Shown piece after piece: positions 16,957 to 41,741 of a DNA stretch of 64,000 nt. The position numbers were made by a program, and so were the translations under genes. Source of the DNA: Tabrizicola sp. TH137 (lineage in GTDB: Bacteria; Pseudomonadota; Alphaproteobacteria; Rhodobacterales; Rhodobacteraceae); NCBI RefSeq assembly GCF_002855575.1, contig NZ_PKRQ01000006.1, forward strand, positions 186,001-250,000. The letters are read 5' to 3'. The notes below the pieces were generated by a model, which did not search any database, was not told where the DNA came from, and saw only the letters and a list, made by a program, of their open reading frames with translations. Position 1 is the first letter of the stretch; the number at the start of each line of letters is the position of its first letter.

Positions 16957-17364
16957 TCAGGCTGGGATCACCGCCGTCGCCTCGATCTCCACCTTGGCGC
17001 GGTCCTCGACCAGCGCCACCACCTGCACCAGGGCCATGGCCGGGTAATGCCGCCCGATCACCGCCTTGTAGGCCCGCCCCAGGTCCTTCAGCGAGGCGAG
17101 GTATTCCCGCTTGTCCGTCACATACCAGGTCAGCCGCACCAGATGCTCCGGCCCCGCCCCGGCGCAGGCCAGCACCTCGACGATGGACCGCAGCGCCTGC
17201 TCCGCCTGCCCCACGAAATCATCCGTCTCGAAGACCTGATCGGCATTCCAGCCGATGATCCCCCCGGTGAACACCATCCGCCCGGTGGCGGCCACCCCGT
17301 TGGAATAGCCGATGGCGGGTTTCCAATGCGACGGGTGCAGGAATTGCAGCGTGCTGTCGGTCAT
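16957..17364 (-). CDS. Rid/YjgF-family protein, atypical active site
   Basis: 135-residue Rid-superfamily protein, last gene of the 2-aminobenzoyl-CoA-type operon. Family features include YSNGVAATGRMVFTGG and the C-terminal KVEIEATAVIPA. Classic RidA enamine/imine deaminases have an Arg in the PARS-type segment before that end; here the segment reads HYPAMALVQV, with Met, so the classic deaminase residue seems absent. In this operon a protein that handles enamine intermediates would make sense, because the aminobenzoyl-CoA product is an enamine, but this is inference. Its ATG overlaps the upstream thioesterase stop (ATGA). Confidence 0.8.
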   Translation of the reverse strand: MTDSTLQFLHPSHWKPAIGYSNGVAATGRMVFTGGIIGWNADQVFETDDFVGQAEQALRSIVEVLACAGAGPEHLVRLTWYVTDKREYLASLKDLGRAYKAVIGRHYPAMALVQVVALVEDRAKVEIEATAVIPA

Positions 17365-17768
17365 GCGGTCTTCTCCTCATGCGCGGCCAGCACCGCGCGA
17401 ATGCGTTCGGGCCAGCGCGCGGGCCGCCCCTCCGGCGACAGCCAGACCAGCACCAGCCGCGCGACAAGGCGCAGCGCGCCGCCACAGCGCGCCTCCAGCC
17501 GGAACCCGGCGGAACTGCCGCCCAGCTTTTCCACCACCAGCCCCCAGTCCAGCACCTCGCCCAGCCGCGACGGCGCGTGGAAATCCGTCTCCACCCGCGC
17601 CGTCGGCACGCCGATGCCATCCGCCATCATGGCGGCATAGGAATAGCCCACGATCTCGCGGAAGAAATTCTCCATGACCGAATTCGTCATCTCGAAATAG
17701 CGGGGATAGAAGACGATCCCCGCCGGATCGCAATGGTTGAACTCGACGCGGATCGCGCGCTGATACAT
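17361..17768 (-). CDS. 4-hydroxybenzoyl-CoA thioesterase-like hot-dog protein
   Basis: Acyl-CoA thioesterase of the YbgC/4-hydroxybenzoyl-CoA type, 135 residues, cytoplasmic. FNHCDPAGIVFYPRYFEM (about residues 10-27) carries the catalytic Asp14 of this subfamily. I start at MYQRAIRVEF (17768). It probably releases or proof-reads aromatic or alicyclic CoA thioesters formed by the neighbouring enzymes. Translationally coupled to the Rid gene and 22 bases from the cupin gene. Confidence 0.82.
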   Translation of the reverse strand: MYQRAIRVEFNHCDPAGIVFYPRYFEMTNSVMENFFREIVGYSYAAMMADGIGVPTARVETDFHAPSRLGEVLDWGLVVEKLGGSSAGFRLEARCGGALRLVARLVLVWLSPEGRPARWPERIRAVLAAHEEKTA

Positions 17769-17790
17769 GGGCCCCTGTCTCCTGCGCCGC

Positions 17791-18243
17791 TCAGTCGTTG
17801 GCTTCGGGCGGCAGGAAATCCACGTCATGCGCGGCCGAGGCGGCGATGATGGCGGGGATATCCGTCATGTCGTGCAACTGGTCGAACAGCGCCTCGAGCT
17901 TGCCCGCCGGCGATACCCAGAACAGCGCCCGGCAGGGCTTGTCGGACTTGTTGAAATAGCCATGCGGCACCCCGCGCGGCATCCGCACCAGATCGCCCGC
18001 CCGCGCCGTATGCCAGACCCCGTCCAGCTTCAGCTCCAGCTGACCTTCCTGCACGAGGATGAATTCATCCTGCGTCGGATGCACATGCACCGGCACATAT
18101 TGCCCCGGCTCGCTGTTGGTCTCGAAGGCAAAGGTCGCCTCGCAGCTTGCCTTCGGGAAATAGCGCTGCCCGAGGATGTTGAGTTCGCGCCCGTGATAGG
18201 CGCTGCCGTCCTTCGTGATGCCGCCGTCCAGTGTCTTGGTCAT
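17791..18243 (-). CDS. Cupin-domain protein
   Basis: Single-domain cupin, 150 residues. The two cupin motifs are seen as VPVHVHPTQDEFILVQEGQL (about residues 50-69, His-x-His...Glu metal ligands) and GDLVRMPRGVPHGYFN (about 83-98, last His ligand). Proteins of this kind accompany anthraniloyl-CoA/salicylyl-CoA hydroxylase genes and may be dioxygenases, isomerases or ligand sensors; the sequence does not decide. Located between the acyl-CoA dehydrogenase and the thioesterase in one operon. Confidence 0.78.
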   Translation of the reverse strand: MTKTLDGGITKDGSAYHGRELNILGQRYFPKASCEATFAFETNSEPGQYVPVHVHPTQDEFILVQEGQLELKLDGVWHTARAGDLVRMPRGVPHGYFNKSDKPCRALFWVSPAGKLEALFDQLHDMTDIPAIIAASAAHDVDFLPPEAND

Positions 18244-18265
18244 GTCCCTCTCCCCTGTTGTGCCG

Positions 18266-19402
18266 TCAGCCCAGGATGCTGCGGGCGATCACCACCCGCT
18301 GCACATCCGACGCCCCCTCATAGATCCGCAACGCGCGGATTTCACGATAGAGGCTTTCCACCACCGACCCGTGCCGCACGCCGTCGCCGCCATGCAACTG
18401 CACCGCCATGTCGATCACCTCCTGCGCGGCCTCGGTGGCGTAAAGCTTCGCCATCGCCGCCTCGCGCGTCACCCGCGCCGCGCCATTGTCCTTGGTCCAG
18501 GCCGCCCGATAGACCAACAGCGCCGCCGCGTCGATCTTCAGCGCCATGTCGGCCAGATGGCCCTGCACCATCTGCAACCCCGCCAGCGGCTCGCCCTGTA
18601 TCCGCCGCGCCTTCACCCGCGCCAGCGCCTCGTCCAGCGCCCGCCGCGCAAAGCCCAGCGCCGCCGCCCCGACGGTGGACCGGAACACGTCCAGCACCGA
18701 CATGGCCAGCTTGAACCCCTCGCCGGGACGGCCGATCAGCGCCTCTTCCGGCAGCACAACGCCCCGCATCCGCAGGCTGGCCAGCGGATGCGGCGCGATC
18801 ACCTCCAGCCGCTCCACCACCTCCAGCCCCGCCACATCGGCGGGCATCAGGAAGGCCGACAGGCCCTTCGCCCCCGGCGCCTCGCCCGTGCGGGCGAAAA
18901 GGACATAGAGATCGGCAATCCCGCCATTGGAAATCCAGGTCTTCTCGCCCTCGATCAGCCAGCCGCCCTGCACCCGGCTTGCCGTCGTGGCCGTCGCCGC
19001 CACGTCGGACCCCGATCCCGGTTCCGTCAGGGCAAAGGCGGCGATGGCCTCCCCCGCCCGCGTCCGCTCCAGCCACCGCTTCTGTTCCGCCGTCCCGAAC
19101 AGGCTGACCGCCCCCATGCCCAGCCCCTGCATGGCAAAGGCGAAATCCGCCAGCCCGTCATGCCGCGCCAGCGTCTCGCGGATCAGGCAGAGCGTGCGGA
19201 CATCCAGCCGCTCCCCCTCGCCCGCGCCGGAATGCGTCAGCCAACCGCCCTGCCCCAGCATCCGCACCAGCGCACGGCAGGCGGCATCCACATCACCATG
19301 CGCCACCGGCAGATGCGCGGCACACCACGCCTCCAGCGCCGCCGCCAGATCGCGATGCCGCGCCTCGAAAAAGGGCCAGTCCAGAAAGCTTTGATCGCTC
19401 AT
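18266..19402 (-). CDS. Acyl-CoA dehydrogenase
   Basis: FAD-dependent alpha,beta-desaturation of an acyl-CoA, electrons passing to ETF; 378 residues. Signatures are [15 protein letters not shown] (about residues 124-138), [37 protein letters not shown] and [11 protein letters not shown], whose Glu is the catalytic base. In this operon a cyclic or dicarboxylic CoA thioester from the dearomatised ring is the likely substrate. The start codon sits just after the copy of the 22-base repeat; GAAGACGAG is the ribosome site and overlaps it. Confidence 0.9.
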
Positions 19403-19481
19403 CTCGTCTTCATCTTGGCAAAAATACTCTCAGGGGGTGAGGAGCGAAGCGACGAGGGGGCGGAACGCCCCCTGCAACGCC
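19403..19481 (-). repeat. Intercistronic hairpin plus 22-base dispersed repeat
   Basis: Between the enoyl-CoA hydratase stop and the acyl-CoA dehydrogenase start. AGGGGGC/GCCCCCT arms form a GC hairpin near 19454-19473, and bases 19408-19429 are identical to 2563-2584 between soxB and soxD. It may separate expression of the two halves of the operon. Confidence 0.65.
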
Positions 19482-20294
19482 TCAATCCCCGCGAAACAGC
19501 GGGGTCTCCTTGGCAACAAAGGCGTGATAGGCCCGTTCGAAATCGCGGGTCTGCATGCAGATCGCCTGCGCCTGCGCCTCGGCCTCGATGGCCTGATCGA
19601 GCCCCATGTTCCATTCCTGATTGAGCTGGGTCTTCGTCATCCCATGCGCGAAGGTCGGCCCGGCCGCCAAGGCACGCGCAAGGTCCATCGCCGCCGCGTC
19701 CAAGGCTTCCGGGGCATGCAGCGCGTTCCAGAATCCCCAGCGTTCCCCCTCCTCGGCCCGCATCACCCGGCCGGTATAGAGCAGTTCCGCCGCCCGCCCC
19801 TGCCCGATGATCCGCGGCAGCATCGCGCAGGCCCCCATGTCGCAACCCGCCAGCCCGACGCGGGTGAACAGGAAGGCGCATTTCGCCCCCGGTGTCGCCA
19901 GCCGCAGGTCGGCGGCCATCGCCATGATCGCCCCCGCCCCCACGCAGATGCCATCCACCGCGGCGATGACAGGCTTGCCGCAGCCGATCATGGCCTTGAC
20001 CAGATCGCCGGTCATCCGGGTGAAGGCGAGAAGCTCCTTCATCTCCATCCCGACCAGCGGGCCGATGATGTCATGCACATCCCCGCCCGAACAGAAATTG
20101 CCCCCGTTCGAGGCGATCACCACCACATCCACATCGCTGGCATAGGGCAGCGCACGGAAGGTGTCGCGCAATTCGGCATAGGAGTCGAAGGTCAGCGGGT
20201 TCTTCCGCTCCGGGCGGTTCAGCCGGATCACCGCCACGCGGTCCGTCACCTCCCACAGGAAATGCTGCGGTTGCAGCCCGGCCATGGCCCCCAT
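19482..20294 (-). CDS. Enoyl-CoA hydratase/isomerase family protein
   Basis: Crotonase-fold enzyme, 270 residues, for hydration (or ring hydrolysis) of an unsaturated CoA thioester. The oxyanion-hole segment is [20 protein letters not shown] (about residues 61-80), and the second one is [20 protein letters not shown]. The catalytic-Glu region reads [20 protein letters not shown]: the usual Glu at the end of the G(L/A)xG helix is not obvious, so a reaction other than simple hydration is possible. ATG 20294 overlaps the MarR stop (TGATG); GTG 20297 and ATG 20285 are alternatives. Confidence 0.85.
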
Positions 20295-20728
20295 CACGCC
20301 TCTCCCATCCGCTTCAGGATATCGGTCAGCGCGTCCAGATCGGCCTCCGAAAGCCCCCCGAACATCCGCGCCACTTCCGCCTCATGCCCTGCCGCCAGCA
20401 CTTCGAACTGCGCCAGCCCCTCGGGCGTCAGCGCGACAAAGACCGTGCGCCGGTCGGTTTCCGACGGCATCCGCCGCACCAGCCCGTCTTTCTCCAACCG
20501 GTCCACCACCGTCGTCGCATTGCCATTCGACACCAGCAGCATCCGGGAAAGCTCGCTCATCGTCACGCAATCCCGGCGCCGATAGAGCGCGGCCATGACG
20601 TCGAAACGCGGCAGGGTCGTCTCGTGCCGCACCCGCAGGAATTCGCGCAGCTCGCTCTCCGCCGCGCGGGTCACGCCCAGCAGCCGGATCCACATCTTCA
20701 GGCGCCGCTTGGACAGGGAATCGCTCAC
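20294..20728 (-). CDS. MarR-family transcriptional regulator
   Basis: 144 residues, winged helix. [20 protein letters not shown] (about residues 56-75) is the recognition helix region, and [20 protein letters not shown] is the wing with the family's DRR motif. It starts at GTG, overlapping the SDR stop by GTGA. Embedded in the operon, it probably senses an aromatic CoA thioester or acid and represses this operon and the divergent one; the inverted repeat at 23815-23845 is a candidate site. Confidence 0.88.
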
Positions 20729-21468
20729 ACCTCACCCCCGGAAATCACGATGCCCTGCCCGTTCACCCCCGCCGCCCCGTCGGAACAAAGCCAGAGCGCC
20801 GCCGATGTCACCTCGTCGGGCCGGTAAAGCCGCCCCTGCGGCGACATCCCCTCCAGCGCCGCCCGCGCCTGTTCGGGGGTCTTTCCCGTCTTCTCCGATA
20901 TCACCCGGATCGACTGCTCCGTCATCTCGGTATCCAGAAACCCCGGACAGATCGCATTTGCCGTCACCGGCCCTCTTGCCACTTCCAGCGCGACCGACCG
21001 CACCAGCCCCATCACCCCGTGCTTCGCCGCCGCATAGGGCGCCACCTTGGCATAGCCCTTCACGCCCGCCGTCGAGGCGATGGCGATCAACCGCCCCCAG
21101 CCGTCGAACTGCCGCAGCCCTTCGCGGAAGGTCAGGAAGACCCCCGTCAGGTTCACCGCGATCATCGCATTCCACTGCGCGAGGCTCGTCTTCGCCAGAA
21201 CCGCACTATCCGCCGCCCCGGCATTGGCAATCACCACATCCACCCTGCCCGCAGCGGCAAACAGCGCCTGGACCGACCCTTCCTCCGTCACGTCGCAGGG
21301 CAGCGCCCGGATCGCCCCATGCTGCGCCGCGACCGCGGCCAGCGCCTCGACCCGCCGCCCGCAGATGACAACCTCGGCCGCCCCCGCACGGGCGAAGCCC
21401 AGCGCAAGGTCCGCCCCCGCGCCCGACCCGCCGCCCGTGACCAGAACCCGCCGCCCCGCTACGCTCAT
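20725..21468 (-). CDS. SDR-family oxidoreductase, 3-hydroxyacyl-CoA dehydrogenase type
   Basis: 247-residue short-chain dehydrogenase. Cofactor motif [18 protein letters not shown] (about residues 9-26), NAG in [10 protein letters not shown], catalytic Ser in [10 protein letters not shown] and Tyr-x3-Lys in YAAAKHG. Start chosen at MSVAGRRVL, where ATG overlaps the stop of the fusion monooxygenase. Position right behind the dearomatising enzyme suggests it reduces or oxidises a ring keto/hydroxy group of the CoA thioester product. Confidence 0.85.
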
Positions 21469-23750
21469 GCCCGGATCACCTCGACCGCCTTCTGCTGCAA
21501 ACGCCGCATCTGGTCGCGCCCTGCCAGATAGGGCAGCGGCCAGTCGGTCGCAGCATCGCCCATGGCGACGGCGGCGTGAAGGGTCCAATAGGGATTGGCC
21601 AGATGCAGCCGCGCAAGGCAGACAAGATCGGCCCGCCCGGCCAGCAGGATGGAATTCACATGATCGGGTTCGGTGATGTTGCCCACCGCCATCGTGGCGA
21701 TCCCCGCCTCGTTGCGGATACGGTCGCTGAAGGGCGTCTGGAACATCCGCCCATAGACAGGCCGCGCCTCCACCGAGGTCTGCCCCGCCGAAACGTCGAT
21801 GATATCCGCCCCCGCACCCGCGAACATCCGCGCGATCTGCACCGCCTCATCCGGCGTCACGCCTTCGTCACCGACCCAATCCGTTGCAGAGATACGCACC
21901 GCCAGCGGCTTCTCCTCGCCCCAGGCCGCGCGCATCGCCCGCAACACCTCCAGCGGCCAGCGCATCCGGTTCTCCAGACTGCCGCCATAGGCATCCGCCC
22001 GCCGGTTCGATTTCGGGCTGATGAAGGAGGACAGCAGATAGCCATGCGCCGCATGCAGTTCGATCATGTCGAACCCTGCCCGCTTCGCCATTTCGGTGGC
22101 CGCGACGAATTCCGCCGTCACCGCCTCCATATCGGCCCGCGTCATCTCGCGCGGGACCGCGTTCCGGGCCGACCACGGCACCGGCGACGGCGCGATGATT
22201 TCCCAATTCCCCGCAGGCAGGGGCGCATCCCCCTCTTCCCAGCCGACCTGGGTAGAGGCCTTCCGCCCCGCATGGCCGATCTGGCAGCAGATCTTCGCCT
22301 CCGTCTCGGCATGGACGAAATCCACGATCCGCTTCCAGGCCGCCTCATGCTCCGGCGCATAAAGCCCCGGACAGCCCGGCGTGATCCGCCCCTGCGCGCT
22401 GGTGCAGGTCATTTCCGTATAGACCAGCCCCGCCCCGCCCTTGGCGCGTTCGCCGTAATGCACCAGATGCCAGTCGGTCGGGCATCCCTCCACCGCCTTG
22501 TACTGCGCCATGGGCGACACCACGACACGGTTCCGCAACGCCATGTCGCGCAGCCGGAAGGGCGCGAACATGGGCTTGCGCCCCTTCTGCCCGCCCGCCT
22601 GTTCCTGGAACCAGTCCTCCGCCCGGCCCAGCCATGCCGGATCGCGCAGGCGCAGGTTCTCATGCGAAATCCGCTGACTGCGCGTCAGCAGCGAATAGGC
22701 GAACTGTTCCGGCGGCAGGTCCAGATAGCGCTCCACCTGCTCGAACCATTCCAGGCTGTTCCGCGCCGCCGATTGCAGGCGCAGCACCTCCACCCGCCGC
22801 TCGTCCTGATAACGCTGGAAGGCCGCCTGCATATCCGCTTCGGAATGCAGGAATTCCGCCAGGGCGATGGCGCTGTCGAAGGCCAGCCGCGTGCCGGACC
22901 CGATGGAGAAATGCCCCGTCGCCGCCGCATCGCCCATCAGCACCACATTCTCGTGATACCAGGTCCCGCAGATCACGCGGGGGAAGTTCATCCACACCGC
23001 CGACCCGCGCAGATGCGCCGCGTTGGAAATCAGCGCGTGACCGCCCAGATGCCGCTCGAAGATCCGGCGGCAGGTCTCCACCGTCTCCTCCTTGGACAGG
23101 TCGGCAAAACCCCATCTGTCCCAGGTCTCCTGCGCCATCTCGACGATGAAGGTCGCGGTCTTGTCATCGAACTGATAGGCATGAGCCCAGACCCAGCCAT
23201 GCTCCGTCTTCTCGAAGATGAAGGTGAAGGCATCGTCGAATTTCTGATGCGTCCCCAGCCAGACGAACTTGCACAGGCGCATGTCGATATCGGGCTGGAA
23301 CACCTCGGCATATTCCTTGCGCACGGCCGAATTGATGCCATCCGAGGCGACGACGAGGTCATAGTCCTTGCGGTATTCCTCCGCCGTCCGGAATTCCGTC
23401 TCGAATTGCAGATCGACACCCAGTTCCCGCGCCCGCGCCTGCAACAGGATCAGCATCTGCTTGCGCCCGATGCCCGCGAAACCATGCCCCCCGGAAACCG
23501 TCCGCACGCCGTCATGCACCACGGCGATATCGTCCCAATAGGCGAAATGGTCACGGATCGCCTGCGTGGAAACAGGGTCATTCTTCTGCATCCGCCCCAG
23601 CGCATCATCCGACAGCACCACGCCCCAGCCGAAGGTATCATTGGCCCGGTTGCGTTCCAGCACCGTCACCTGATGCGACGGATCGCGCAGCTTCATCGAG
23701 ATGGCAAAGTAAAGTCCGGCAGGACCGCCGCCGAGGCAGAGAATCTTCAT
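21465..23750 (-). CDS. Bifunctional FAD monooxygenase/OYE reductase, 2-aminobenzoyl-CoA or salicylyl-CoA 5-hydroxylase type
   Basis: 761-residue fusion that hydroxylates and reduces an ortho-substituted benzoyl-CoA. Residues 1-390 are a class A flavin monooxygenase: [16 protein letters not shown] (FAD), [13 protein letters not shown] (DG motif, about 136) and [18 protein letters not shown] (GD motif, about 273). Residues from about 393 are an Old Yellow Enzyme domain with [20 protein letters not shown] (about 563-582) and [12 protein letters not shown]. This architecture is that of 2-aminobenzoyl-CoA monooxygenase/reductase (anthranilate degradation in Azoarcus) and salicylyl-CoA 5-hydroxylase. 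The Rid gene and the absence of gentisate genes favour an amino substrate here. Start at MKILCLGG, with inframe residues upstream rejected as promoter DNA. First gene of the operon. Confidence 0.88.
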
Positions 23751-23814
23751 CGACCCAAATCCCAGTTGCGGCGCGGAATGCGCCCTGATCCGAAGCTGGC
23801 ACCAAGAGGCATTC

Positions 23815-23845
23815 ATTTCAAGTTCAAAATTTTCGGGCTTGAAAT
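23815..23845. promoter_or_regulatory. Inverted-repeat operator candidate between divergent catabolic operons
   Basis: ATTTCAAG (23815-23822) and CTTGAAAT (23838-23845) are perfect 8-base arms 15 bases apart, in an AT-rich island within the 122-base divergent region. It overlaps TTCAAGTTCAAAAT (23817-23830), one of four copies of a shared motif. Likely site for the MarR regulator of this operon or for the winged-helix regulator at 30536-31090. Confidence 0.5.
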
Positions 23846-23872
23846 TTTTCGGCAAGCCGCGAAGATGCCGTC

Positions 23873-28062: not shown

Positions 28063-28079
28063 AAACAGGAGGGGTTGGG

Positions 28080-32298: not shown

Positions 32299-32306
32299 GG
32301 GGCGGG

Positions 32307-34395: not shown

Positions 34396-36539
34396 GCGGC
34401 CCCCTCGAATGTCAGACGCCGCGCGGCGCGGCGGGATTGCAGCCAGCCGATCACGCGGTCGCGCAGGCGCGCGCGCTTCACCTCGGCGGGTGCGGGATTG
34501 TGCACCACATCGGCGCGGTAGAAGGACGGGCAAAGCACGGCCGCATCCGCCACCTCGCCGCAATTGCCGCAGCCGACGCAGCTCTGGTCGATGCTCGCCA
34601 CCGGATCGTCGCGCAGGGGATCGTCCAGCTTCTTCAAGGACAGCGACGGGCAGCCCGACAGGCGGATGCAGGCATGATCGCCGGTGCAGACATCCTCATC
34701 CACGCCAAAGCGGGGGGCTTCCACGCGCCGCCCGTCCTTGATCGCCTTCTGCGTCAGGGGCTTTTCCCGCCGCTGCCTGTTCAGCATGCATTCAGACGAG
34801 GCGACGATGACCTTCGGCCCCGGCGCATCGGTGGTCAGCGCCTCGCGCAGCACATCGCGCATGCGGCCCACGTCATAGGTGCGGTCCACCTGACGGACCC
34901 AGTCGATGCCGATGCCCTTCAACGCCTTGGTGATGGGATGCTTCGTCGCCTTCGTGGGGTTGTCGGCGCGCGAGGACATGATGTCCTGCCCCCCCGTGGC
35001 CGCGGAATAGTAGTTGTCCACGATCACCGCCACGCCATCGGACTTGTTGAAGGCCATGTTTGTAAAGCTGGAAGACAGCCCGTTATGCCAGAACCCGCCA
35101 TCCCCGATGATGCTGACAGGCCGCCGTTCCCCCCCGCCATCAAAGGCGGCATTGGCGGCAGGGCCAAGACCATAGCCCATGGTCGCACCGCCGATTTCGA
35201 ACGGGGGCAGCGCGGCAAAGAGATGGCAGCCGATATCGGCGCTGATCTGAAGCTTTCCGGTTTCCTTCTGCACCAGCTTCATCGCGGCGAAGATGGGCCG
35301 CTCCGGGCAGCCCGTGCAGAACCCCGGCGGCCGGATCGGCACCGTCTTCGAAAGGTCAGGGATCTGCGGCTTGTCCTCATTGGGCGCGCGCACCAGCGCA
35401 GGCAGCATCTGGGGGGCGGCCTCCTTGAGAAAGGCGGTGATCCCGTCCAGCATCACCTGCCCCGTATATTCCCCCGCCATCGGCAACAGGCCCTTGCCGC
35501 GCAGTTTTACCGTGGACCCGGCGCGATAGAGGAAGGTGGTCAACTGCTGTTCGATGAATTCCGGCTGTCCTTCCTCGATCACCAGCACCTGGTCCTTGCC
35601 CTCGCAGAAGTCCAGAAACTCGGAGGCCAGCAGGGGATAGGTCACGTTCAGCACATAAAGCGGAACCTGCGAGTTTCCCCAGATATCCGCGAGCCCAAGC
35701 CGTTGCAGCGCGCGAATGACGCCATTGTACATCCCCCCCTGCAACACCAGCCCGACGGGGGCCGTCTTGGGACCGAAGACCTCGTTCAGGCCCCGCTCCC
35801 GGATGAACTTTTCCGCATTGGGCCAGCGGTTGCGGATCTTGTCCTGCTCATGCGCATAGGACATGGGCGGCAGCACGACGCGGGCGAAATCCGATTGCGG
35901 ATTGGACAGCGCCTCGCGCACCGTCAGTTTCGGGCGCTGGTTGTCGCGGGTCTGGAAAGACCCCGTCACATGGCAGGACCGGATGCGCACCATCAGCATG
36001 ACAGGGGTATTCGACGCCTCCGAAAGCTCGAACCCGTCCTTTACCGCCTTGGTGATGCAGGGCAGGTTGGGGCGCGGGTCCAGCAGCCAGAACTGCGATT
36101 TCATGGCAAAGGCATGCGACCGCTCCTGCATGATCGAGGAACCTTCGCCGTAGTCCTCGCCCACAATGATCAGCGCGCCGCCATTCACGCCCGAAGAGGC
36201 GAGGTTGGCCAGGGCATCCGAGGCGACGTTCACCCCCACAGACCCCTTGAAGGTTACCGCCCCCCGGATCGGGTAATGGACCGATGCCGCCAGCATCGCC
36301 GCCGCCGCTGCCTCGTTGGCATTCGCCTCGAAGCGGATACCCAGTTCGGACAGCAATTCCTCGGCATCGGCCAGAACGTCCATGAGATGGGATATCGGCG
36401 CCCCCTGATAGCCGCCAACATAGCCCACGCCATTTTCCAGAAGCGCCTTGGTGATGGCCAGAATGCCCTCGCCGGTGAAGGTTTCCCCCGCGCCCAGACG
36501 CAGATGTTCCACCTCTGCCTTGAAGGACCGTTCCGCCAT
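34392..36539 (-). CDS. iorA: Indolepyruvate ferredoxin oxidoreductase alpha subunit
   Basis: 715-residue catalytic subunit: aryl-2-oxoacid + CoA to aryl-acyl-CoA + CO2, electrons to ferredoxin. Domains in order: pyrimidine-binding half (GYQGAPISHLMDVLADA, about residues 43-59), transketolase-like GFCTGCPERPIFAAM (about 418), TPP motif IIGDGGFWHNG...VDNYYSAATGGQD (about 485-525), and a C-terminal ferredoxin domain with CTGDHACIRLSGC and CVGCGNCGEVADAAVLC for Fe-S clusters. Family substrates are indolepyruvate, phenylpyruvate or phenylglyoxylate. In this operon, 2-aminophenylglyoxylate from isatin is an attractive alternative. Confidence 0.9.
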   Translation of the reverse strand: MAERSFKAEVEHLRLGAGETFTGEGILAITKALLENGVGYVGGYQGAPISHLMDVLADAEELLSELGIRFEANANEAAAAAMLAASVHYPIRGAVTFKGSVGVNVASDALANLASSGVNGGALIIVGEDYGEGSSIMQERSHAFAMKSQFWLLDPRPNLPCITKAVKDGFELSEASNTPVMLMVRIRSCHVTGSFQTRDNQRPKLTVREALSNPQSDFARVVLPPMSYAHEQDKIRNRWPNAEKFIRERGLNEVFGPKTAPVGLVLQGGMYNGVIRALQRLGLADIWGNSQVPLYVLNVTYPLLASEFLDFCEGKDQVLVIEEGQPEFIEQQLTTFLYRAGSTVKLRGKGLLPMAGEYTGQVMLDGITAFLKEAAPQMLPALVRAPNEDKPQIPDLSKTVPIRPPGFCTGCPERPIFAAMKLVQKETGKLQISADIGCHLFAALPPFEIGGATMGYGLGPAANAAFDGGGERRPVSIIGDGGFWHNGLSSSFTNMAFNKSDGVAVIVDNYYSAATGGQDIMSSRADNPTKATKHPITKALKGIGIDWVRQVDRTYDVGRMRDVLREALTTDAPGPKVIVASSECMLNRQRREKPLTQKAIKDGRRVEAPRFGVDEDVCTGDHACIRLSGCPSLSLKKLDDPLRDDPVASIDQSCVGCGNCGEVADAAVLCPSFYRADVVHNPAPAEVKRARLRDRVIGWLQSRRAARRLTFEGAA

Positions 36540-36551
36540 CTGCCGCCTCCC

Positions 36552-37142
36552 TCAGTTCGCCGGGGCGATGTTGGACCACAGCACCGGGCCGCCGTCCTTT
36601 TCATAGGCCATGCCTTGCGGGAAGCTGATCGCCTCCATCTGCAATCCCCAGGGCGCGAAGAAATAGAGGATCGACTGGCCTGCTGCGGGCCCTTCGCTGA
36701 CGGGAATCGGGCCCATCAGGCTGCGGATGCCCTTCTCCTTCAGATAGGCGGCGGCGGCGTTGATATCCTCGACATAGAAGGCGATGTGATGGCCGCCGAT
36801 GTCGCTGTTGCGCGGGGTCACCGTCTTCTGGTCCGGGGCGGTGTATTTGAAGAGTTCGATGTTCGACCCGAAACCGCACCGCATCAGCGTGATCTGTTCG
36901 ATCACCGCGCGGGGGTCCACGTCCAGCACATCCTGCATGAAGCTGCCCGCATCATCGCGGAAGGGGCCGAAGGCGGTGGCCTTCTGGCATCCCAGAACAT
37001 CGGTGAAGAAGGCTTCCGCCTCGGCCAGATCCGGCACGGTTATGCCGATATGGTTGACACCCTTGATGCCGGGCATCGGATCGGCCATGGCCGGGCTGAT
37101 GATGGCCAGGGCAGAGCAGGTCAGGACGAAAAGACGGTGCAT
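36552..37142 (-). CDS. Exported VOC (glyoxalase-fold) protein
   Basis: 196 residues. MHRLFVLTCSALAIISPAMA is a clear signal peptide with cleavage after AMA, so the protein should be periplasmic; this start (37142) is supported by GGGAG upstream. The mature part is a two-module VOC fold: VNHIGITVPDLAEAEAFFTD (about residues 30-49) with metal-ligand His, GHHIAFYVEDINAAAAYLKE, and LYFFAPWGLQMEAISFP with the last ligand Glu. VOC enzymes include ring-cleaving dioxygenases and lyases; a secreted one is unusual. Lies 12 bases ahead of iorA. Confidence 0.82.
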   Translation of the reverse strand: MHRLFVLTCSALAIISPAMADPMPGIKGVNHIGITVPDLAEAEAFFTDVLGCQKATAFGPFRDDAGSFMQDVLDVDPRAVIEQITLMRCGFGSNIELFKYTAPDQKTVTPRNSDIGGHHIAFYVEDINAAAAYLKEKGIRSLMGPIPVSEGPAAGQSILYFFAPWGLQMEAISFPQGMAYEKDGGPVLWSNIAPAN

Positions 37143-37197
37143 GGTGGAACTCCCTCGTTCGGCTATGTCCGGTGTCTGCGCGTGGCCGAAAATCGCG

Positions 37198-37686
37198 TCA
37201 GATCTCATGCTTGCGGATATTGGTCAGCATCTTCTGCAACGTGCCGACGAAGGCGCGCCTCTCATCTTCGGATATGCCGCGGAACATGCGGGCATGCGCC
37301 TCGGCCATCCGGGGCCAGAGCGTCTCGAAGGCCGTTCTCCCCGCCTCGGTGATGAAGACGCGGGTGGCGCGGCTGTCGGTGGTGTCGGCCTCGCGCCGGA
37401 TCAGCCCCTCGCCCGCCAACTGGTCCAGCGCGCGGGACAGGGTTGATTGCTCCACCACCGAATAGACGGCCAATTCGCGGATCAGCGGCCCTTCGATCAC
37501 CGAAAGCACCGCCAGCGCCCGCATCTTGGGCGTGGTCAGACCCAGCCCCGCCATTTCGTCCCTGAGACTGGCGTTGTAGCGCCCCATGATGCGGTTCATC
37601 AGATAGGGCGCGTAATTCGTCAGTCCGATCTCTCCCAGCCGGGGCAGGGTTTCGGGGGGTTTTTCCGGGGGGGATTGGTCCGTCAT
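37198..37686 (-). CDS. MarR-family transcriptional regulator
   Basis: 162 residues. Helix-turn-helix around LIRELAVYSVVEQSTLSRAL (about residues 68-87) and wing LIRREADTTDSRATRVFITE with the DSR variant of the family's DxR motif. Start ATG overlaps the flavoprotein stop. As the third gene of the six-gene operon it probably represses its own operon and the divergent one by binding the nested palindromes at 40125-40144. Ligand unknown. Confidence 0.87.
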   Translation of the reverse strand: MTDQSPPEKPPETLPRLGEIGLTNYAPYLMNRIMGRYNASLRDEMAGLGLTTPKMRALAVLSVIEGPLIRELAVYSVVEQSTLSRALDQLAGEGLIRREADTTDSRATRVFITEAGRTAFETLWPRMAEAHARMFRGISEDERRAFVGTLQKMLTNIRKHEI

Positions 37687-39248
37687 GCGCCCAGACCCTT
37701 TGCCGCAAGGAAGCCCGATCCGCCGCCCAGACCCGGGCCGGGATGGGTGGAGGCCCCGATGTGCCGAAGGCCCCGCACCAGCCCCGTGCCATTGGTGGAA
37801 TGGGCATAGGGACGGAAGATGAAGAACTGGTCGATGGTGCAAAGCCCGCCATAGGGATCACCGCCGACGAGGTTGACATTCATCGCCGCCAGATCGGCCG
37901 GGCTATAGGCCCTGCGCGCCAGCTTGATGGCATCGAAGTCCTTGATGTGGCGTTTCAGGATCGCTTCGATCCGGTCGGCAAAGGCTTCGCGGGTTGCTTC
38001 GGACCACGTCCCATCGGTGGCAATCTGGCCCGCCGCATCGCCCTTCACCACGCGCGGCGCATCGGGGATCTGCAACCACAGCACCGCCTTGCCTTCCGGC
38101 ACCCGCGACGGGTCCAGTCGATGCGGTTGCCCGACGCAGATCGTGGGAATGGCCGGCAGCATCCCCCTTTCGGCTTCGTTGGCGGATTTGGAAACGCTGT
38201 CGATCCCATCCGCCAGATGGATCAGCGCCACATCGTCCAGCCCCGGCGAAAGCCAGTCGGGATGGCGGTCCAGTGCGTAATGCAACTGGAAATTCCCCCG
38301 CCCGTGGCGGAAGGACTTTGCCGCATCGCGATCCTCCGGAAGGTTCACCTCGCGCAGAAGACGCCCCTGCAACTGCCCCGGCGCGACCGAGGCAAGCACT
38401 GATGCACAGGCGATCTCTTCGCCCGAGGCCAGGGCCACGCCGCGCACCTTTCCATCCTTCACGATGATCCGGTCCACATCCGCACCGCAGCGAATCTCGC
38501 CGCCCTTCTCTGCGATCAGCGCGCGGAAGGCGGCCACCCCTGCCCCCGATCCGCCCTTGACGACAGGCGCCCCCGCCGCCTCCAGGGCGAAGGCGATGAC
38601 CTTGCCCATCTGACCCGAATAGGTGCTTTCGGGCGTCAGCCCGCAATGCAGCACCCAGGGCGCGTAAAGCGCCTGCACATCGGGCGAGGTATAGGTCGTT
38701 TCCAACCACCCCCGCGCCGGCACCAGCGCGCGCCCGAACCATGCCGCAAGCCCGCGCAAGCCGCGCTTGCGCATCTGCCCCCAAAGGAGTTTCGCCGTAG
38801 GCCAGGACCACAACGCCCCGCCCAGCAGCGCGAAAAGGAAAGGCGCATCCGCCTCCACCCCGCCCACATCGCGGGCATGGGCATCGCCGTCGCCGGGCGA
38901 CAGCGCGTTGAACGCCGCGACATTCTTCGCCCGGTCCGTCGTCAGCACCAGCGCCTGCCCGTCCGGCCGCAGCACGGCCGTAGGGTGGGGCGTGTGGCAA
39001 TAGTCGAAGCCATGCCGCGCCAGGTGGGGGCCAAGCACGGCCCCCGCCGGAGAGGTCATGAACAGGACCCAGGTCGCCGCCATCACGTCATGCCGGAAGC
39101 CGGGAAGCGAGATCTCCTCGGTCCGCAGGCAACCGCCTGGCACCGCCTCGCGCTCCAGCAGAAGCACGCGGTCGCCCTTCAGCGCCAGCATGGCGCCCGC
39201 GACCAGCGCATTGATCCCGCTTCCGATGATGACGTGATCCGGCGTCAT
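37683..39248 (-). CDS. PYROXD2/phytoene-desaturase-like FAD oxidoreductase (copy A)
   Basis: 521 residues, COG1233-type flavoprotein. N-terminal FAD motif VIIGSGINALVAGAMLALKG (about residues 5-24), then LLEREAVPGGCLRTEEISLP, and C-terminal GLCTIDQFFIFRP with GLRHIGASTHPGPGLGGGSG, the second FAD-contact region. The family oxidises or isomerises hydrophobic polyunsaturated or amine substrates; here the role is unknown. It starts 3 bases after the cyclase gene and shares its fold with the divergent copy at 40173-41741, so the two may act on successive intermediates or form one enzyme. Confidence 0.8.
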   Translation of the reverse strand: MTPDHVIIGSGINALVAGAMLALKGDRVLLLEREAVPGGCLRTEEISLPGFRHDVMAATWVLFMTSPAGAVLGPHLARHGFDYCHTPHPTAVLRPDGQALVLTTDRAKNVAAFNALSPGDGDAHARDVGGVEADAPFLFALLGGALWSWPTAKLLWGQMRKRGLRGLAAWFGRALVPARGWLETTYTSPDVQALYAPWVLHCGLTPESTYSGQMGKVIAFALEAAGAPVVKGGSGAGVAAFRALIAEKGGEIRCGADVDRIIVKDGKVRGVALASGEEIACASVLASVAPGQLQGRLLREVNLPEDRDAAKSFRHGRGNFQLHYALDRHPDWLSPGLDDVALIHLADGIDSVSKSANEAERGMLPAIPTICVGQPHRLDPSRVPEGKAVLWLQIPDAPRVVKGDAAGQIATDGTWSEATREAFADRIEAILKRHIKDFDAIKLARRAYSPADLAAMNVNLVGGDPYGGLCTIDQFFIFRPYAHSTNGTGLVRGLRHIGASTHPGPGLGGGSGFLAAKGLGA

Positions 39249-39251
39249 GGA

Positions 39252-40046
39252 TCAGCCCTTCGGCACAAGGGCCAGCGCCCGGATGGGCGAGCCGGTCCCC
39301 TGTTTGATCTTCAGCGGCGCGGCAATCAGGATCGCCCCCTTGGCCGGCAGCTTGTCGAGGTTGGCAAGCGAGGCGAGGCCGAAACAGTTGTGCTTGTGCA
39401 AAAGGTTATGCGCCGGGAAGGGCGGGGTCATGCCGCCCGCCTGCCCTGCATCGGTGCCGATGCACTGGCTGCCCCAACCCACGATGCCCTTCGACAGCAG
39501 GTATTCGATCACCTCGGCGGTCGGCCCCGGCGTATGCGGCCCCGTCTCGTTCGCGTTCAGGAACAGCGCCTCGTCATGCGCGCGCTTGTCCCAGTCGGAC
39601 CGCAGCACGACCCATTCGCCCTTGCCGATCGCGCCATGCTTTGCCTCCCAGGCCTTCACATGGTCGATGGTCAGCAGGAAGTCGGGGTTCGCGGCGCATT
39701 CGGCACTGTAATCCAGCACATTCACCGGCGCCACCAGACGCTGCACGTCCAGCGTATCGGTATAGCCGTCGGCGTAATCCTTGCCGGTGATCCAGTGATG
39801 CGGCGCGTCGAAATGGGTGCCGCTATGTTCGCCCAGTTCCAGCCAGTTCCAGGCCCAGAACGGCCCATCCTTGTCATACTCGCTGATGCGATGGATCTTG
39901 ATCGGCGGCGTGTCCTTGGCGAAATCCGGGGGCAGCTTCAGCAGCGGCGTTTCCGGGCCGAGCACGCCCGAACAATCCACCACCTCGATCCCGCCCGAGG
40001 CGAGCATTCCCGCCAAGGATGAAAGAACGCTTGCAGAGGTCATCAT
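39252..40046 (-). CDS. Cyclase-family amidohydrolase (isatin hydrolase / kynurenine formamidase-like)
   Basis: 264-residue metal-dependent hydrolase of the cyclase family. The signature HxGTHxDxPxH is complete in GEHSGTHFDAPHHW (His74, His78, Asp80, His84), the Mn/Zn site. VLGPETPLLKLPPDFAKDTP, ISEYDKDGPFWAWNW and NANETGPHTPGPTAEVIEYL resemble what I remember of isatin hydrolases from marine alphaproteobacteria more than of kynurenine formamidase, which is shorter; this needs a phylogeny. Isatin hydrolase opens isatin to isatinate. No tryptophan dioxygenase or kynureninase gene is in the window. First gene of the operon ending in iorAB. Confidence 0.72.
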   Translation of the reverse strand: MMTSASVLSSLAGMLASGGIEVVDCSGVLGPETPLLKLPPDFAKDTPPIKIHRISEYDKDGPFWAWNWLELGEHSGTHFDAPHHWITGKDYADGYTDTLDVQRLVAPVNVLDYSAECAANPDFLLTIDHVKAWEAKHGAIGKGEWVVLRSDWDKRAHDEALFLNANETGPHTPGPTAEVIEYLLSKGIVGWGSQCIGTDAGQAGGMTPPFPAHNLLHKHNCFGLASLANLDKLPAKGAILIAAPLKIKQGTGSPIRALALVPKG

Positions 40047-40113
40047 CGTCTCCCTGTTGGCCGGACCCGCCCGGCAGTCACGCGAACCGGTTGCCTCCGG
40101 CCGTCATGGAATC

Positions 40114-40144
40114 ATGCTAGACAGATTTAAATGCATTTGCAAAT
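40114..40144 (-). promoter_or_regulatory. Promoter of the cyclase-iorAB operon with nested palindromes
   Basis: On the minus strand TTGCAA (40142-40137), 17-base spacer, TAGCAT (40119-40114). The -35 and spacer are covered by three overlapping perfect palindromes: ATTTAAAT (40125-40132), AAATGCATTT (40129-40138) and ATTTGCAAAT (40135-40144). Likely MarR operator in the 126-base divergent region. Confidence 0.6.
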
Positions 40145-40172
40145 ATCCCAGCGTCAATCCGGCGGGGAGAAA

Positions 40173-41741
40173 ATGGCCGACACCTTCGACGCAGTCCTGA
40201 TCGGCGCGGGCCACAACACCCTGGCCGCCGCCCTGCACCTGTCGGCCAAGGGCTGGCGCGTGGGCGTGTTTGAACAGGCCTCCGTCGCAGGCGGGGCGGT
40301 CAAGACGGGTGCCTATACCCTGCCCGGCTTTCGCCATGACTGGGCGGCGATGAACCTGTCCCTCTTTGCCGGAAGCCCTTTTTTCAAGGCCCATGGCGCG
40401 GAACTTGCGAGGCATGGCTGCGACTTCATCCCGGTGAACCGCCCCTTCGCCTCGTCCTTTCCCGATGGCGCCTGGGCGGGTGTCTCCACCGACATGGGGG
40501 AAACGCTGGCCGCCTTCCGCGCGCTTTCACGCCGCGATGCAGAAACATGGGAAAGTCTCGTCGCGCGATTCGGGGCAGAGGCGCCGCATCTCTTCGGGCT
40601 GCTCGGCTCCGAGATGAAATTCCGTGCGCTTGCATATTTCATGTTCAAAACATACCGCGCCAAAGGGGCGGGCGGGTCGCTCGACTTCGCGCGCTTCCTG
40701 CTCTCCTCGCCGCGGGCCTGGCTGGAAGAGACCTTCGAACATCCCCATATCCGCGCGCTGCTGGCCGCCTGGGGGATGCATCTGGATTTTGCGCCCGATG
40801 TCGCCGGGGGCGCGATGTTTCCCTATCTGGAGGGCATGGCGGGGCAGGCCTTCGGCATGGCGCTCGGCAAGGGCGGGGCGGATGTCATCGTCAAGGCGCT
40901 GGTCGCCGCCATCACGGCGCGCGGCGGGGTGGTGGAAACCGGCACGCGCGTCGCCCGCATCCTGCATGAGGGCGGGCGTGCCTCGGGCATCGAACTGGAG
41001 GGCGGCCGCCGGATCACCGCCACCCGTGCCGTGATCGCAGGCGTCGCCCCCCGCGCCCTCACCCGCCTTACGGGCGGGACGACCCCGGCCTTCGACCGCA
41101 GCATGGCCGGCTTCCGCCACGCCCCCGGCACGATGATGATCCATCTGGCGATGAGCGCCCTGCCCGACTGGCGCGCGGGGGCCGATCTGCAACGATTTGC
41201 CTATGTCCATCTTGCCCCCAGCCTTGACCAGATGGCACGCACCTATGCGCAGGCCCAGGCGGGGCTGCTGCCCGACGAACCGATCCTTGTTGTCGGCCAG
41301 CCCACGGTGTTTGACCCGTCCCGCGCACCGGACGGCAAGCATGTGCTCTGGGTGCAGGTCCGCATGGCCCCCGGCGCCATCACGGGCGATGCCAAGGGTG
41401 AAATCGCGGCACGGGACTGGGGCGAGGCCGCCGAACCCTTCGCCGACCGTGCGCTGGCGATCCTCGAAGCCCATGCCCCCGGCACGCGGGCAAAGATCCT
41501 CGGCCATCGGATCGTCACGCCTCTCGAACTGGAGGCCGACAACCCCAACCTGATCGGCGGCGATCAGGTCTGCGGCAGTCACCACCTGTCGCAGAACTTC
41601 CTGTTCCGCCCGGCGCGCGGCCATGCCGACGGGTCCACGCCCATCGCCAAGCTGCATCTCACCGGGGCCGCCGTCTGGCCCGGTGCAGGCACAGGGGCGG
41701 GGCCGGGATATCTGCTTGCCCGGAAACTCGCCGGAGCCTGA
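40173..41741 (+). CDS. PYROXD2/phytoene-desaturase-like FAD oxidoreductase (copy B)
   Basis: 522 residues. FAD motif VLIGAGHNTLAAALHLSAKG (about residues 8-27), VFEQASVAGGAVKTGAYTLP, and C-terminal NLIGGDQVCGSHHLSQNFLF with LTGAAVWPGAGTGAGPGYLL. Same family as the divergent copy A but clearly diverged. Start at MADTFDAV behind GGGGAGA; an earlier ATG at 40131 lies in the operator palindromes and is rejected. Followed after 49 bases by the ABC transporter genes, so import and oxidation of the substrate are probably co-expressed. Confidence 0.8.
   Translation: MADTFDAVLIGAGHNTLAAALHLSAKGWRVGVFEQASVAGGAVKTGAYTLPGFRHDWAAMNLSLFAGSPFFKAHGAELARHGCDFIPVNRPFASSFPDGAWAGVSTDMGETLAAFRALSRRDAETWESLVARFGAEAPHLFGLLGSEMKFRALAYFMFKTYRAKGAGGSLDFARFLLSSPRAWLEETFEHPHIRALLAAWGMHLDFAPDVAGGAMFPYLEGMAGQAFGMALGKGGADVIVKALVAAITARGGVVETGTRVARILHEGGRASGIELEGGRRITATRAVIAGVAPRALTRLTGGTTPAFDRSMAGFRHAPGTMMIHLAMSALPDWRAGADLQRFAYVHLAPSLDQMARTYAQAQAGLLPDEPILVVGQPTVFDPSRAPDGKHVLWVQVRMAPGAITGDAKGEIAARDWGEAAEPFADRALAILEAHAPGTRAKILGHRIVTPLELEADNPNLIGGDQVCGSHHLSQNFLFRPARGHADGSTPIAKLHLTGAAVWPGAGTGAGPGYLLARKLAGA

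Follow-up and report, generated by a model that had tools for sequence, protein, structure and literature searches.

An island in the window (the whole stretch of DNA analysed, 64,000 nucleotides) probably serves the catabolism of indole-type compounds via isatin to 2-aminobenzoyl-CoA, with IorAB predicted from sequence to replace anthranilate and an ATP-using ligase. Its genes and their neighbours are as follows.

16957-17364 (-) Rid-family deaminase/imine hydrolase of the ACMR block (PF01042, 74 bits; again adjoins ACMR in other loci)
17361-17828 (-) 4HBT thioesterase-like protein (PF13279)
17791-18243 (-) cupin (PF07883)
18266-19402 (-) acyl-CoA dehydrogenase, beta-oxidation-like step (matches NCBIfam models of acyl-CoA dehydrogenases under their equivalog cut-offs; recurs with ACMR)
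19482-20297 (-) enoyl-CoA hydratase family protein (PRK08258, 482 bits, cut-off 330)
20294-20728 (-) MarR regulator 1 (MarR1) of the ACMR block; recurs with ACMR
20725-21468 (-) SDR dehydrogenase after ACMR (start re-set)
21465-23750 (-) ACMR, 2-aminobenzoyl-CoA monooxygenase/reductase-type fusion; start near 23750
23873-24640 (+) second enoyl-CoA hydratase
24637-25749 (+) 3-hydroxyacyl-CoA dehydrogenase
25746-26921 (+) 3-oxoadipyl-CoA-type thiolase (acetyl-CoA acyltransferase subfamily above cut-off; pcaF 534 bits, below cut-off 597)
26942-27910 (-) AraC-family regulator, AndR/IifR-like (AndR model 154 bits, cut-off 350; relatives adjoin SDR2 and indole/styrene monooxygenase)
28080-28847 (+) SDR2, presumed front-end dehydrogenase for indole, placed like IifB (74-92% homologues adjoin StyA/StyB-type monooxygenase)
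28904-30415 (+) FMO, flavin-containing monooxygenase at the site of StyAB in relatives (PF00743, 142 bits; 87% to locus L144)
30536-31090 (-) HTH regulator, partner of the luciferase-like gene (PF13463; travels with LLM)
31207-32298 (+) LLM, luciferase-like FMN-dependent monooxygenase, accessory
32307-32801 (+) flavin reductase, partner of LLM
32833-34395 (-) IorB (POR gamma and DUF6537, Pfam), proposed isatinate oxidoreductase subunit (PRK08312, 689 bits, cut-off 348; start set by the overlap with iorA)
34392-36539 (-) IorA (thiamine diphosphate, Fe-S; TPP domain), proposed to be the CoA-acylating isatinate:acceptor oxidoreductase
36552-37208 (-) VOC-fold protein (PF13669; near 15/80 loci, position varies)
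37198-37686 (-) MarR2, core regulator (192 bits to 3CJN; in 68/80 loci)
37683-39248 (-) PYX1, FAD oxidoreductase, candidate for the dehydrogenation of dioxindole to isatin (predicted fold of the carotenoid desaturase/amine oxidase kind, pLDDT 90)
39252-40046 (-) isatin hydrolase, B type
40131-41741 (+) PYX2, paralogue of PYX1 (37% identical)
41791-43314 (+) family-5 solute-binding protein (SBP) gene with an in-frame TAA at 42313-42315; single open frame in relatives (cluster c18)
43390-44457 (+) OppB-type permease
44450-45316 (+) OppC-type permease
45214-46179 (+) OppD-type ATPase
46176-46973 (+) OppF-type ATPase
46958-47491 (-) 4HBT thioesterase adjoining OppF (same neighbour in L142, L143, L147, L157, L159)

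Gene content and edges of the island

Every part named in the initial annotation was found where it had been placed and the island is real, with four regulators as counted there (MarR1, the AndR-like protein, the HTH protein and MarR2). ACMR had rightly been called a fusion of 2-aminobenzoyl-CoA monooxygenase/reductase type: its 796-aa ORF joins, by domain matches, a flavin monooxygenase part (~36-397) to an old-yellow-enzyme part (~429-773), and it exceeded the PRK08255 cut-off (1280 against 1078 bits), though that model's own name is salicylyl-CoA. The "flavin monooxygenase with SDR" of the same annotation is present as two genes, FMO and SDR2; fusion holds for ACMR. The genes of the span 16957-41741 are all there, but its right edge was set too early, because in relatives the Opp-type importer (SBP and OppBCDF, 41791-46973) is present or absent together with PYX1/PYX2. 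The PYX1/PYX2/Opp genes also occur apart from isatin hydrolase, on an S. indolifex plasmid (~65 kb away, adjoining hydroxyproline genes) and on a plasmid of M. loti NZP2037.

In a locus comparison, the site between the HTH gene and SDR2 held FMO in the window and StyAB in relatives; the window thus has no StyA-type indole oxygenase with flavin reductase at this site. Both SDR2 and the AndR-like regulator match genes adjoining StyA-type oxygenases. SDR2 matches at 60% the SDR of an Azospirillum operon with the order AraC-SDR-indole/styrene monooxygenase-flavin reductase-transporter-PYX1-cyclase, and a PYX1 homologue (60.5%) lies within an indole/styrene-monooxygenase operon. The indole/styrene monooxygenase of relatives, standing where the window has FMO, points to indole as the first substrate, which is the less certain part of our reading. 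FMO and LLM are accessory, because a survey of 80 loci placed the former near 1 and the latter near 10.

The iorB and iorA ORFs overlap by 4 bp. Membership of the 2-oxoacid:ferredoxin oxidoreductase superfamily is supported by PF02775 (TPP), PF01558 (POR gamma) and a CxxCxxC motif at 654 of IorA; the nearest fold match of IorA was also a 2-oxoacid:ferredoxin oxidoreductase, on a weak predicted model (pLDDT 66). IorA did not reach the cut-off of TIGR03336, the indolepyruvate ferredoxin oxidoreductase alpha equivalog (283 against 651 bits), so family alone does not reveal its substrate.

Isatin hydrolase and its co-inheritance with IorB and ACMR

By its sequence, the window cyclase is isatin hydrolase B. 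It matched the crystallised isatin hydrolases 4J0N (497 bits over residues 2-263), 5NMP (282 bits) and 5NNA (271 bits), against ~30 bits for kynurenine formamidases. The manganese ligands of the His-x3-His-x-Asp motif (H74, H78, D80) are invariant, and the GLAS motif described in PMC6117287 lies near 223-226. The initial annotation had called the cyclase isatin hydrolase-like and had named grouping away from isatin hydrolases as grounds for doubt; it groups with them.

Among 390 genomes of the host's order, 52 of the 53 with isatin hydrolase also had IorB, and in 47 of the 53 IorB lay <20 kb from the hydrolase gene, so the linkage exceeds chance. ACMR was found in all 53, five of the matches being weak relatives (G002, G199, G228, G314, G338; 48-50% where identity is given), against 100 of the 337 genomes that have no isatin hydrolase. 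It lay at most 25 kb from isatin hydrolase in 14/53 and farther away or on another contig in 39/53, and it joins the core at positions that differ by lineage (L147; L191/L192; many of L204-L220; L190/L195; the window). The blocks also stand together in other lineages (L175, G223, G412). In G412, Mesorhizobium sp. WSM4313, they form one run, IorB-IorA-MarR2-PYX1-IH / PYX2-SBP-OppBCDF-VOC-ACMR-SDR-MarR1-ECH-ACAD-Rid, and the 40 kb examined there contain no ligase homologue. The blocks first described as one island are, however, not always joined.

No aminobenzoate-CoA ligase was found among the scanned island genes, which therefore do not hold the Azoarcus-type pairing of ligase with ACMR. The host keeps a ligase on another contig (G000:C22:87688-89295), so a bypass is not forced there. 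With a ligase scored as absent when searches at E 1e-100 or 1e-150 (and 1e-60 as well for G412-G414) gave no homologue, 49 of 273 ACMR genomes from two orders were ligase-free (kinship ignored), and all 49 had isatin hydrolase and IorB. They make up 49 of the 177 genomes with both ACMR and isatin hydrolase, namely 3/53 in the host's order and 46/124 in the genus of WSM4313, with IorB in 3/3 and 46/46. ACMR genomes without isatin hydrolase had a ligase in 96/96 cases (12 + 80 + 4; kinship ignored), the ACMR of the four such controls from the Mesorhizobium genus being divergent (55-56% identical). Of 40 chosen unlinked loci, 39 had the ligase in the ~14-19 kb surrounding ACMR and the fortieth had it ~11 kb off; of the 14 isatin-hydrolase-linked loci, only 7 had it near ACMR. 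Most isatin hydrolase genomes keep it (50/53; 78/124; 32/37 genomes behind named loci). The "ligase-free" genomes could hold an unrelated ligase or a CoA-transferase, and may represent few loss events (one genus and one small group in the host's order).

Proposed route and alternatives

FMO here, or StyAB in relatives, would act with SDR2 to oxidise the substrate towards dioxindole, a related substrate may enter through the Opp importer, and PYX1, perhaps with PYX2, would convert dioxindole to isatin. Isatin hydrolase B would open the ring to give isatinate. Because isatinate is a 2-oxo acid, we propose that IorAB couples its oxidative decarboxylation to transfer onto CoA (isatinate + CoA + 2 oxidised ferredoxin -> 2-aminobenzoyl-CoA + CO2 + 2 reduced ferredoxin), which would bypass anthranilate, ATP and ligase alike. 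ACMR would then dearomatise 2-aminobenzoyl-CoA, and the Rid, hydratase, dehydrogenase and thiolase set would cleave the product, with an ending in succinyl-CoA and acetyl-CoA suggested by gene families. We infer each reaction, above all those of IorAB, the PYX proteins and the front end; what the sequences supply are gene identities, co-inheritance and ligase-free genomes that carry ACMR together with isatin hydrolase and IorB. The isatin intermediate, its opening to isatinate and the 2-aminobenzoyl-CoA end point, all in the initial annotation, are supported by the grouping of the cyclase and by the lineages in which the blocks stand together; iorAB, listed there without a role, would be the link between the last two. 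Against this reading, IorAB-type enzymes are often oxygen-sensitive, whereas ACMR needs oxygen.

Alternatively, isatinate may pass to free anthranilate, enzymatically or spontaneously, and a CoA ligase may then form 2-aminobenzoyl-CoA while IorAB serves a different substrate, such as indolepyruvate or some other aryl-pyruvate. Anthranilate is the end product reported for the Bradyrhizobium and Variovorax iad pathways in the available text of PMC9613470 and PMC12633357, IorA and IorB bear indolepyruvate family names, and the host and most isatin hydrolase genomes searched have a ligase elsewhere. The Variovorax region iadC-K2, whose gene list in the available text of PMC12633357 includes neither iadA nor iadB, yields anthranilate; isatinate can therefore reach anthranilate without IorAB in Variovorax, which counts against our explanation. 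The main text of that 2025 dissection of the Variovorax pathway does not mention iadA/iadB. We nevertheless consider this classical route unlikely, given the 49 ligase-free genomes set against the 96/96 without isatin hydrolase, the score of IorA below the TIGR03336 cut-off, and the absence among the scanned genes of an aminotransferase to supply indolepyruvate.

Separate functions lying side by side (anthranilate, isatin, a sulfone-type luciferase oxygenase) would fit the distance of ACMR in 39/53 genomes and the rarity of LLM and FMO as neighbours, but appear very unlikely when ACMR is present in 53/53 (five weak matches), joins the core in varied positions across lineages and lies in a contiguous run in WSM4313. 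It is still harder to credit that the island degrades tryptophan/kynurenine-type compounds, with the cyclase a kynurenine formamidase partnered by a kynureninase-like protein (c23) and the oxygenases serving other compounds. A second cyclase type, ~70% identical, does adjoin a kynureninase-like gene in L186, L197-L200, L206 and L208, c23 also lies near several core loci, and the Opp importer could carry peptides; however, the window cyclase scores 270-497 bits to isatin hydrolases and keeps their B-type GLAS motif, and neither a kynureninase-like gene nor tryptophan dioxygenase was found among the genes scanned (~14.9-51.4 kb).

The preferred route through isatinate and IorAB offers a candidate function for iorA/iorB, hitherto recognised chiefly as markers of clusters for plant-hormone (auxin) degradation. 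If correct, it would account for the fate of isatinate in aerobes and for ACMR in isatin hydrolase genomes, and the aromatic ring would enter a CoA pathway gaining electrons instead of spending ATP. It bears on bacterial clearance of auxin and indole signals.

Comparison with known systems

A chemical precedent for the proposed IorAB reaction is phenylglyoxylate:acceptor oxidoreductase, which converts an aryl-glyoxylate and CoA to an aroyl-CoA and CO2; that enzyme is anaerobic and differs from IorAB in subunit make-up. The Labrenzia aggregata isatin hydrolase B (4J0N) is a near full-length match to the window cyclase but was studied as an isolated enzyme; the main text of PMC6117287 uses neither "operon" nor "gene cluster". 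The aerobic 2-aminobenzoyl-CoA pathway of Azoarcus evansii, as the available text of PMC4539516 describes it, likewise has an ACMR-type fusion with beta-oxidation-type steps, but there an AMP-forming ligase activates anthranilate.

The iif/ind clusters of Acinetobacter, Cupriavidus and Providencia GS share with the window a PF04199 cyclase and perhaps the pairing of an AraC regulator with an IifB-like SDR and, with its relatives, a StyA-type oxygenase and flavin reductase. The available text on the Providencia cluster (PMC9871250) lists an oxidoreductase gene of 1613 bp, about PYX length. The window differs in having FMO in place of the StyA-type oxygenase and in the true isatin hydrolase and IorAB that follow. 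In the accessible parts of a review (PMC6221969), IifA is reported to give anthranilate directly and an aminobenzoyl-CoA cluster is credited with anthranilate breakdown in indole degradation. The initial claim that no described pathway joins these parts was therefore half right; iad-like loci already join IadI to iorAB.

Those loci (Variovorax, Achromobacter, Bradyrhizobium) are the closest likeness. As set out in the available text of PMC9613470 and PMC12633357, they have an isatin-hydrolase-like IadI, iorAB as iadA/iadB, a second MarR, and isatin and isatinic acid as intermediates; the former calls iorA/iorB exclusive markers of the iad-like type. The window, too, has both iorAB and an isatin-hydrolase-type gene, but differs in the presence of PYX1/PYX2, Opp and ACMR and in an isatin hydrolase with the B-type GLAS motif in place of the A-type GLQC. 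The IadF ligase, IadG thiolase and IadH were not found among the scanned genes of the window locus, nor was the Rieske IadDE among those at 14.9-51.4 kb; three PF00848 matches lie elsewhere in the host genome. In an IorA tree, iad-locus sequences fell in three places among the IorA of PYX-type and bare loci, although the iad label was more clustered than in shuffles (10/500 as low). The element shared by these routes is isatin/isatinate. On balance we lean slightly towards IorAB and IadA/IadB being the same enzyme, which as an isatinate:acceptor oxidoreductase would convert isatinate (2-aminophenylglyoxylate) to 2-aminobenzoyl-CoA and provide a ligase- and ATP-free entry into the aerobic CoA pathway common to indole and indoleacetate, with the anthranilate of iad pathways as overflow.

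Layout of the island and identity of its cyclase

The window lies on contig C35 of the 4.66-Mb host genome (G000). Codon-position gene calling and family searches recovered every part named in the initial annotation, and the island they form falls into three blocks.

Blocks of the island (positions within the window)
16957-26921: block A; Rid, thioesterase, cupin, acyl-CoA dehydrogenase, hydratase, MarR1, SDR1 and the 2-aminobenzoyl-CoA monooxygenase/reductase-type (ACMR) fusion, then divergent hydratase, dehydrogenase and thiolase
26942-32801: block B; AraC-type regulator, SDR2, flavin-containing monooxygenase (FMO), HTH gene, luciferase-like oxygenase, flavin reductase
32833-46973: block C; IorB, IorA, VOC, MarR2, PYX1 (an FAD oxidoreductase), isatin hydrolase; divergently its paralog PYX2, a solute-binding protein gene and the importer genes OppBCDF

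The initial annotation ended the island at PYX2 and left the Opp importer outside. This span was dropped as the entire unit because the neighbourhoods of relatives place the importer within it. The solute-binding protein gene, a single open frame in relatives (cluster c18), has an in-frame TAA at 42313-42315, which may reflect either a genuine loss or an error in sequencing. A tRNA-Glu (14682-14756) and a polysaccharide pyruvyl transferase gene (15700-16872) lie just beyond the island edge. Past a LysR gene there is a large haem peroxidase (PF00141) gene (48486-50687), for which no link to the island was seen.

Over residues 2 to 263, the window cyclase scored 497 bits against isatin hydrolase B of Labrenzia (4J0N). 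Three further isatin hydrolase sequences gave 270-282 bits and kynurenine formamidases only ~30 bits, and a kynurenine formamidase identity was dropped on these scores. In an alignment, the cyclase keeps the metal motif and has GLAS at the B-type motif position, while all three aligned homologs from indoleacetate-degradation (iad)-type loci (G167, G199, G241) have GLQC. GLAS is described as the motif of B-type isatin hydrolases and GLQC as that of others (PMC6117287). Scores and motifs thus place the cyclase with the isatin hydrolases; a grouping away from them would, by the initial annotation, have refuted its isatin pathway. A second cyclase type, ~70% identical to the window enzyme and possibly with a different substrate, adjoins a kynureninase-like PLP enzyme (c23) at seven loci (L186, L197-L200, L206, L208), where no IorAB was seen in the stretch beside it.

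Co-inheritance with ACMR and the distribution of the ligase

We surveyed 390 genomes of the host's order (E 1e-40 for isatin hydrolase and IorB, 1e-150 for ACMR) and found isatin hydrolase in 53, IorB in 61 and ACMR in 153. The hydrolase match was B-type (at least 65% identical) in 39 of the 53 and only 44-51% identical in the other 14. IorB was present in 52 of the 53, within 20 kb of the hydrolase in 47. ACMR accompanied isatin hydrolase in all 53 genomes, five of these matches being weak (G002, G199, G228, G314, G338; E 1e-221 to 1e-235, 48-50% identical where shown), as against 100 of the 337 others, and lay within 25 kb of it in 14.

Isatin hydrolase, MarR2, IorA and IorB formed the core shared by thirty neighbourhoods of 32-40 kb chosen from 28 genomes, rather than all matches (IorA in 28 of the 30), and by the best 80 of at least 582 named loci, whose flanks extended up to 10 kb and in several cases stopped at contig ends. 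Among these best 80, MarR2 was found in 68, IorA in 67 and IorB in 63; PYX1, PYX2 and OppB occurred together in 44, were missing altogether from 23 and showed a mixed pattern in 13. Close by were ACMR (19), the luciferase-like gene (10), StyA (7), SDR2 (6) and FMO (1), and the luciferase-like pair and FMO, as rare neighbours (10/80 and 1/80), were dropped as core members. The closest named isatin hydrolase loci are from Rhodobacteraceae. The core occurs in Rhodobacteraceae, Mesorhizobium, Hoeflea and Labrenzia, and is plasmid-borne in Tritonibacter mobilis. In Mesorhizobium sp. WSM4313 (G412), a contiguous run reads IorB-IorA-MarR2-PYX1-isatin hydrolase / PYX2-SBP-OppBCDF-VOC-ACMR-SDR1-MarR1-ECH1-ACAD-Rid, and no ligase homolog was found within the 40 kb fetched around it.

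In the known aerobic pathway, an AMP-forming ligase activates anthranilate ahead of ACMR (PMC4539516). The ligase gene followed here belongs to the benzoate-CoA-ligase family (TIGR02262, 370 bits, just below the cut-off of 375). Forty fetched stretches had ACMR unlinked to isatin hydrolase (20 of them in genomes lacking the hydrolase and 20 in genomes that carry it at another place); 39 contained the ligase, which in the fortieth lay ~11 kb away, beyond the stretch. At the 14 loci with ACMR close to isatin hydrolase, neighbourhoods and a genome-wide search placed the ligase nearby in 7, elsewhere in the genome in 4 (the window host, G199, G223, G241) and nowhere at E 1e-100 in 3 (G084, G157, G303). 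An earlier count, with the ligase absent from 8 of 12 linked stretches that had been truncated, was revised when the genome-wide search put it near ACMR in G243, G068 and G139. Genome-wide, the ligase was found in 50 of the 53 isatin hydrolase genomes of the order and in all 92 searched (12 + 80) of the 100 with ACMR and no isatin hydrolase. ACMR in G084, G157, G303 and G223 forms a distinct lineage (63-66% identical). Its neighbours include cupin and fumarylacetoacetate hydrolase-family genes of its own, and the stretches fetched lack the block A acyl-CoA dehydrogenase and hydratase.

The 146 genomes of the WSM4313 genus (ACMR at 1e-200, ligase at 1e-150) contained isatin hydrolase in 125, ACMR in 128 and ligase in 82. 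ACMR was found in 124 of the 125 isatin hydrolase genomes, the exception (G400) being a metagenome bin; 78 of these 124 had the ligase and 46 did not. All 46 had IorB, and ACMR lay less than 20 kb from isatin hydrolase in 43 and on a different contig in 3. The four genomes with ACMR and no isatin hydrolase all had the ligase, a divergent ACMR (55-56% identical) and no IorB, which was also absent from the 14 searched of the 17 genomes with neither isatin hydrolase nor ACMR. From the order and genus counts together, none of the 273 ACMR genomes surveyed lacks both ligase and isatin hydrolase, and 49 would, as far as homology shows, depend on isatin hydrolase together with IorAB. For the combined counts, Fisher's test gave 6e-11, uncorrected for relatedness of the genomes. 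At E 1e-60, 32 of the 37 genomes behind named loci had the ligase; it was missing in G400, G412-G414 and G422, of which the metagenome bins G400 and G422 are outside the 49. In G414 and G403, genes distantly similar to the ligase (23-26% identical) are found roughly 17 kb from ACMR.

The proposed IorAB step and the front end

We propose that IorAB converts isatinate and CoA to 2-aminobenzoyl-CoA, bypassing anthranilate and the ligase. Isatinate (2-aminophenylglyoxylate, C8H7NO3) is a 2-oxo acid, and by domains and motif IorAB is built like the 2-oxoacid:ferredoxin oxidoreductases, which makes isatinate its likely substrate. A classical indolepyruvate oxidoreductase is kept as a rival identity, but IorA, the alpha subunit, scores well below that family's cut-off. 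Isatinate is also favoured by the IorA tree, in which loci with different front ends mix. The iad-type loci of our survey carry Rieske subunits, a reductase, an AMP-ligase, a thiolase and an A-type hydrolase, a front end quite different from that of the window, and what they share with PYX-type and bare loci is the step from isatin to isatinate. Among the 29 rows of the tree, the five iad-linked ones require at least three label changes and are interspersed with PYX-linked and bare rows, although the label is still clustered beyond what shuffling gives, with 10 of 500 shuffles reaching so low a value. A PDB sequence search with IorA gave no match at the limits used, and its structure model is poor (pLDDT 66), so its fold matches are consistent with a 2-oxoacid:ferredoxin oxidoreductase and not evidence for one.

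In Variovorax, one report describes strong build-up of C8H7NO3, the isatinate formula, only in strains overexpressing iadC-K2, a region whose gene list is without iadA and iadB (PMC12633357). This fits a missing isatinate consumer. According to the same report, these strains also produce anthranilate (PMC12633357), so another isatinate route exists in Variovorax, which counts against the proposal.

The front end varies among relatives. L157, L163 and a stretch of G293 share the order IorB, luciferase-like gene, HTH gene, StyB, StyA, SDR2, which L159 follows through StyA, where its stretch ends. FMO occupies the position of StyAB, the indole/styrene monooxygenase pair, in the window and, as far as FMO, in L144. 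One StyA, that of G098, contains PF17885, the substrate domain of styrene monooxygenases, and its StyA score of 221 bits falls short of the cut-off of 550. G223 and L175 carry AraC-SDR2-StyAB, ACMR, isatin hydrolase, PYX1, IorAB, PYX2 and importer genes within one stretch. An Azospirillum plasmid row contains AraC (37%), an SDR (60% to SDR2), an indole/styrene monooxygenase, a flavin reductase, a transporter, a PYX1 homolog (60.5%) and a cyclase 50% identical to that of the window. Indole-degradation (iif) clusters are described as comprising AraC, an SDR, a StyA-type oxygenase, a flavin reductase and a PF04199 cyclase (PMC9871250, PMC12538310). Because of these StyAB-bearing relatives, the Azospirillum row and the likeness to iif clusters, the island most likely acts on indole or a closely related compound, and PYX1 may convert dioxindole to isatin. 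The PYX1 model has a carotenoid desaturase/amine oxidase fold, and the fold search gave this class without a substrate. For the regulator at 30536-31090, a PDB sequence search gave no match at the limits used.

The importer substrate need not be indole itself, because the PYX1/PYX2/Opp module is also found apart from isatin hydrolase; on a Sulfitobacter indolifex plasmid (L222) it adjoins proline racemase and 4-hydroxyproline epimerase genes, ~65 kb from that plasmid's isatin hydrolase. On a plasmid of Mesorhizobium loti NZP2037 (L223), PYX2-importer-VOC and a PYX1-like gene surround (2Fe-2S), FAD-binding, Rid and fumarylacetoacetate hydrolase-family genes.

Relation to known pathways

A literature search, with most subscription papers beyond its reach, found no proposal that IorAB converts isatinate to 2-aminobenzoyl-CoA. 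Each enzyme family is already known, as are isatin as an intermediate of indoleacetate breakdown and ACMR downstream of anthranilate; what appears to be new is the proposed IorAB enzyme step within an otherwise known kind of pathway.
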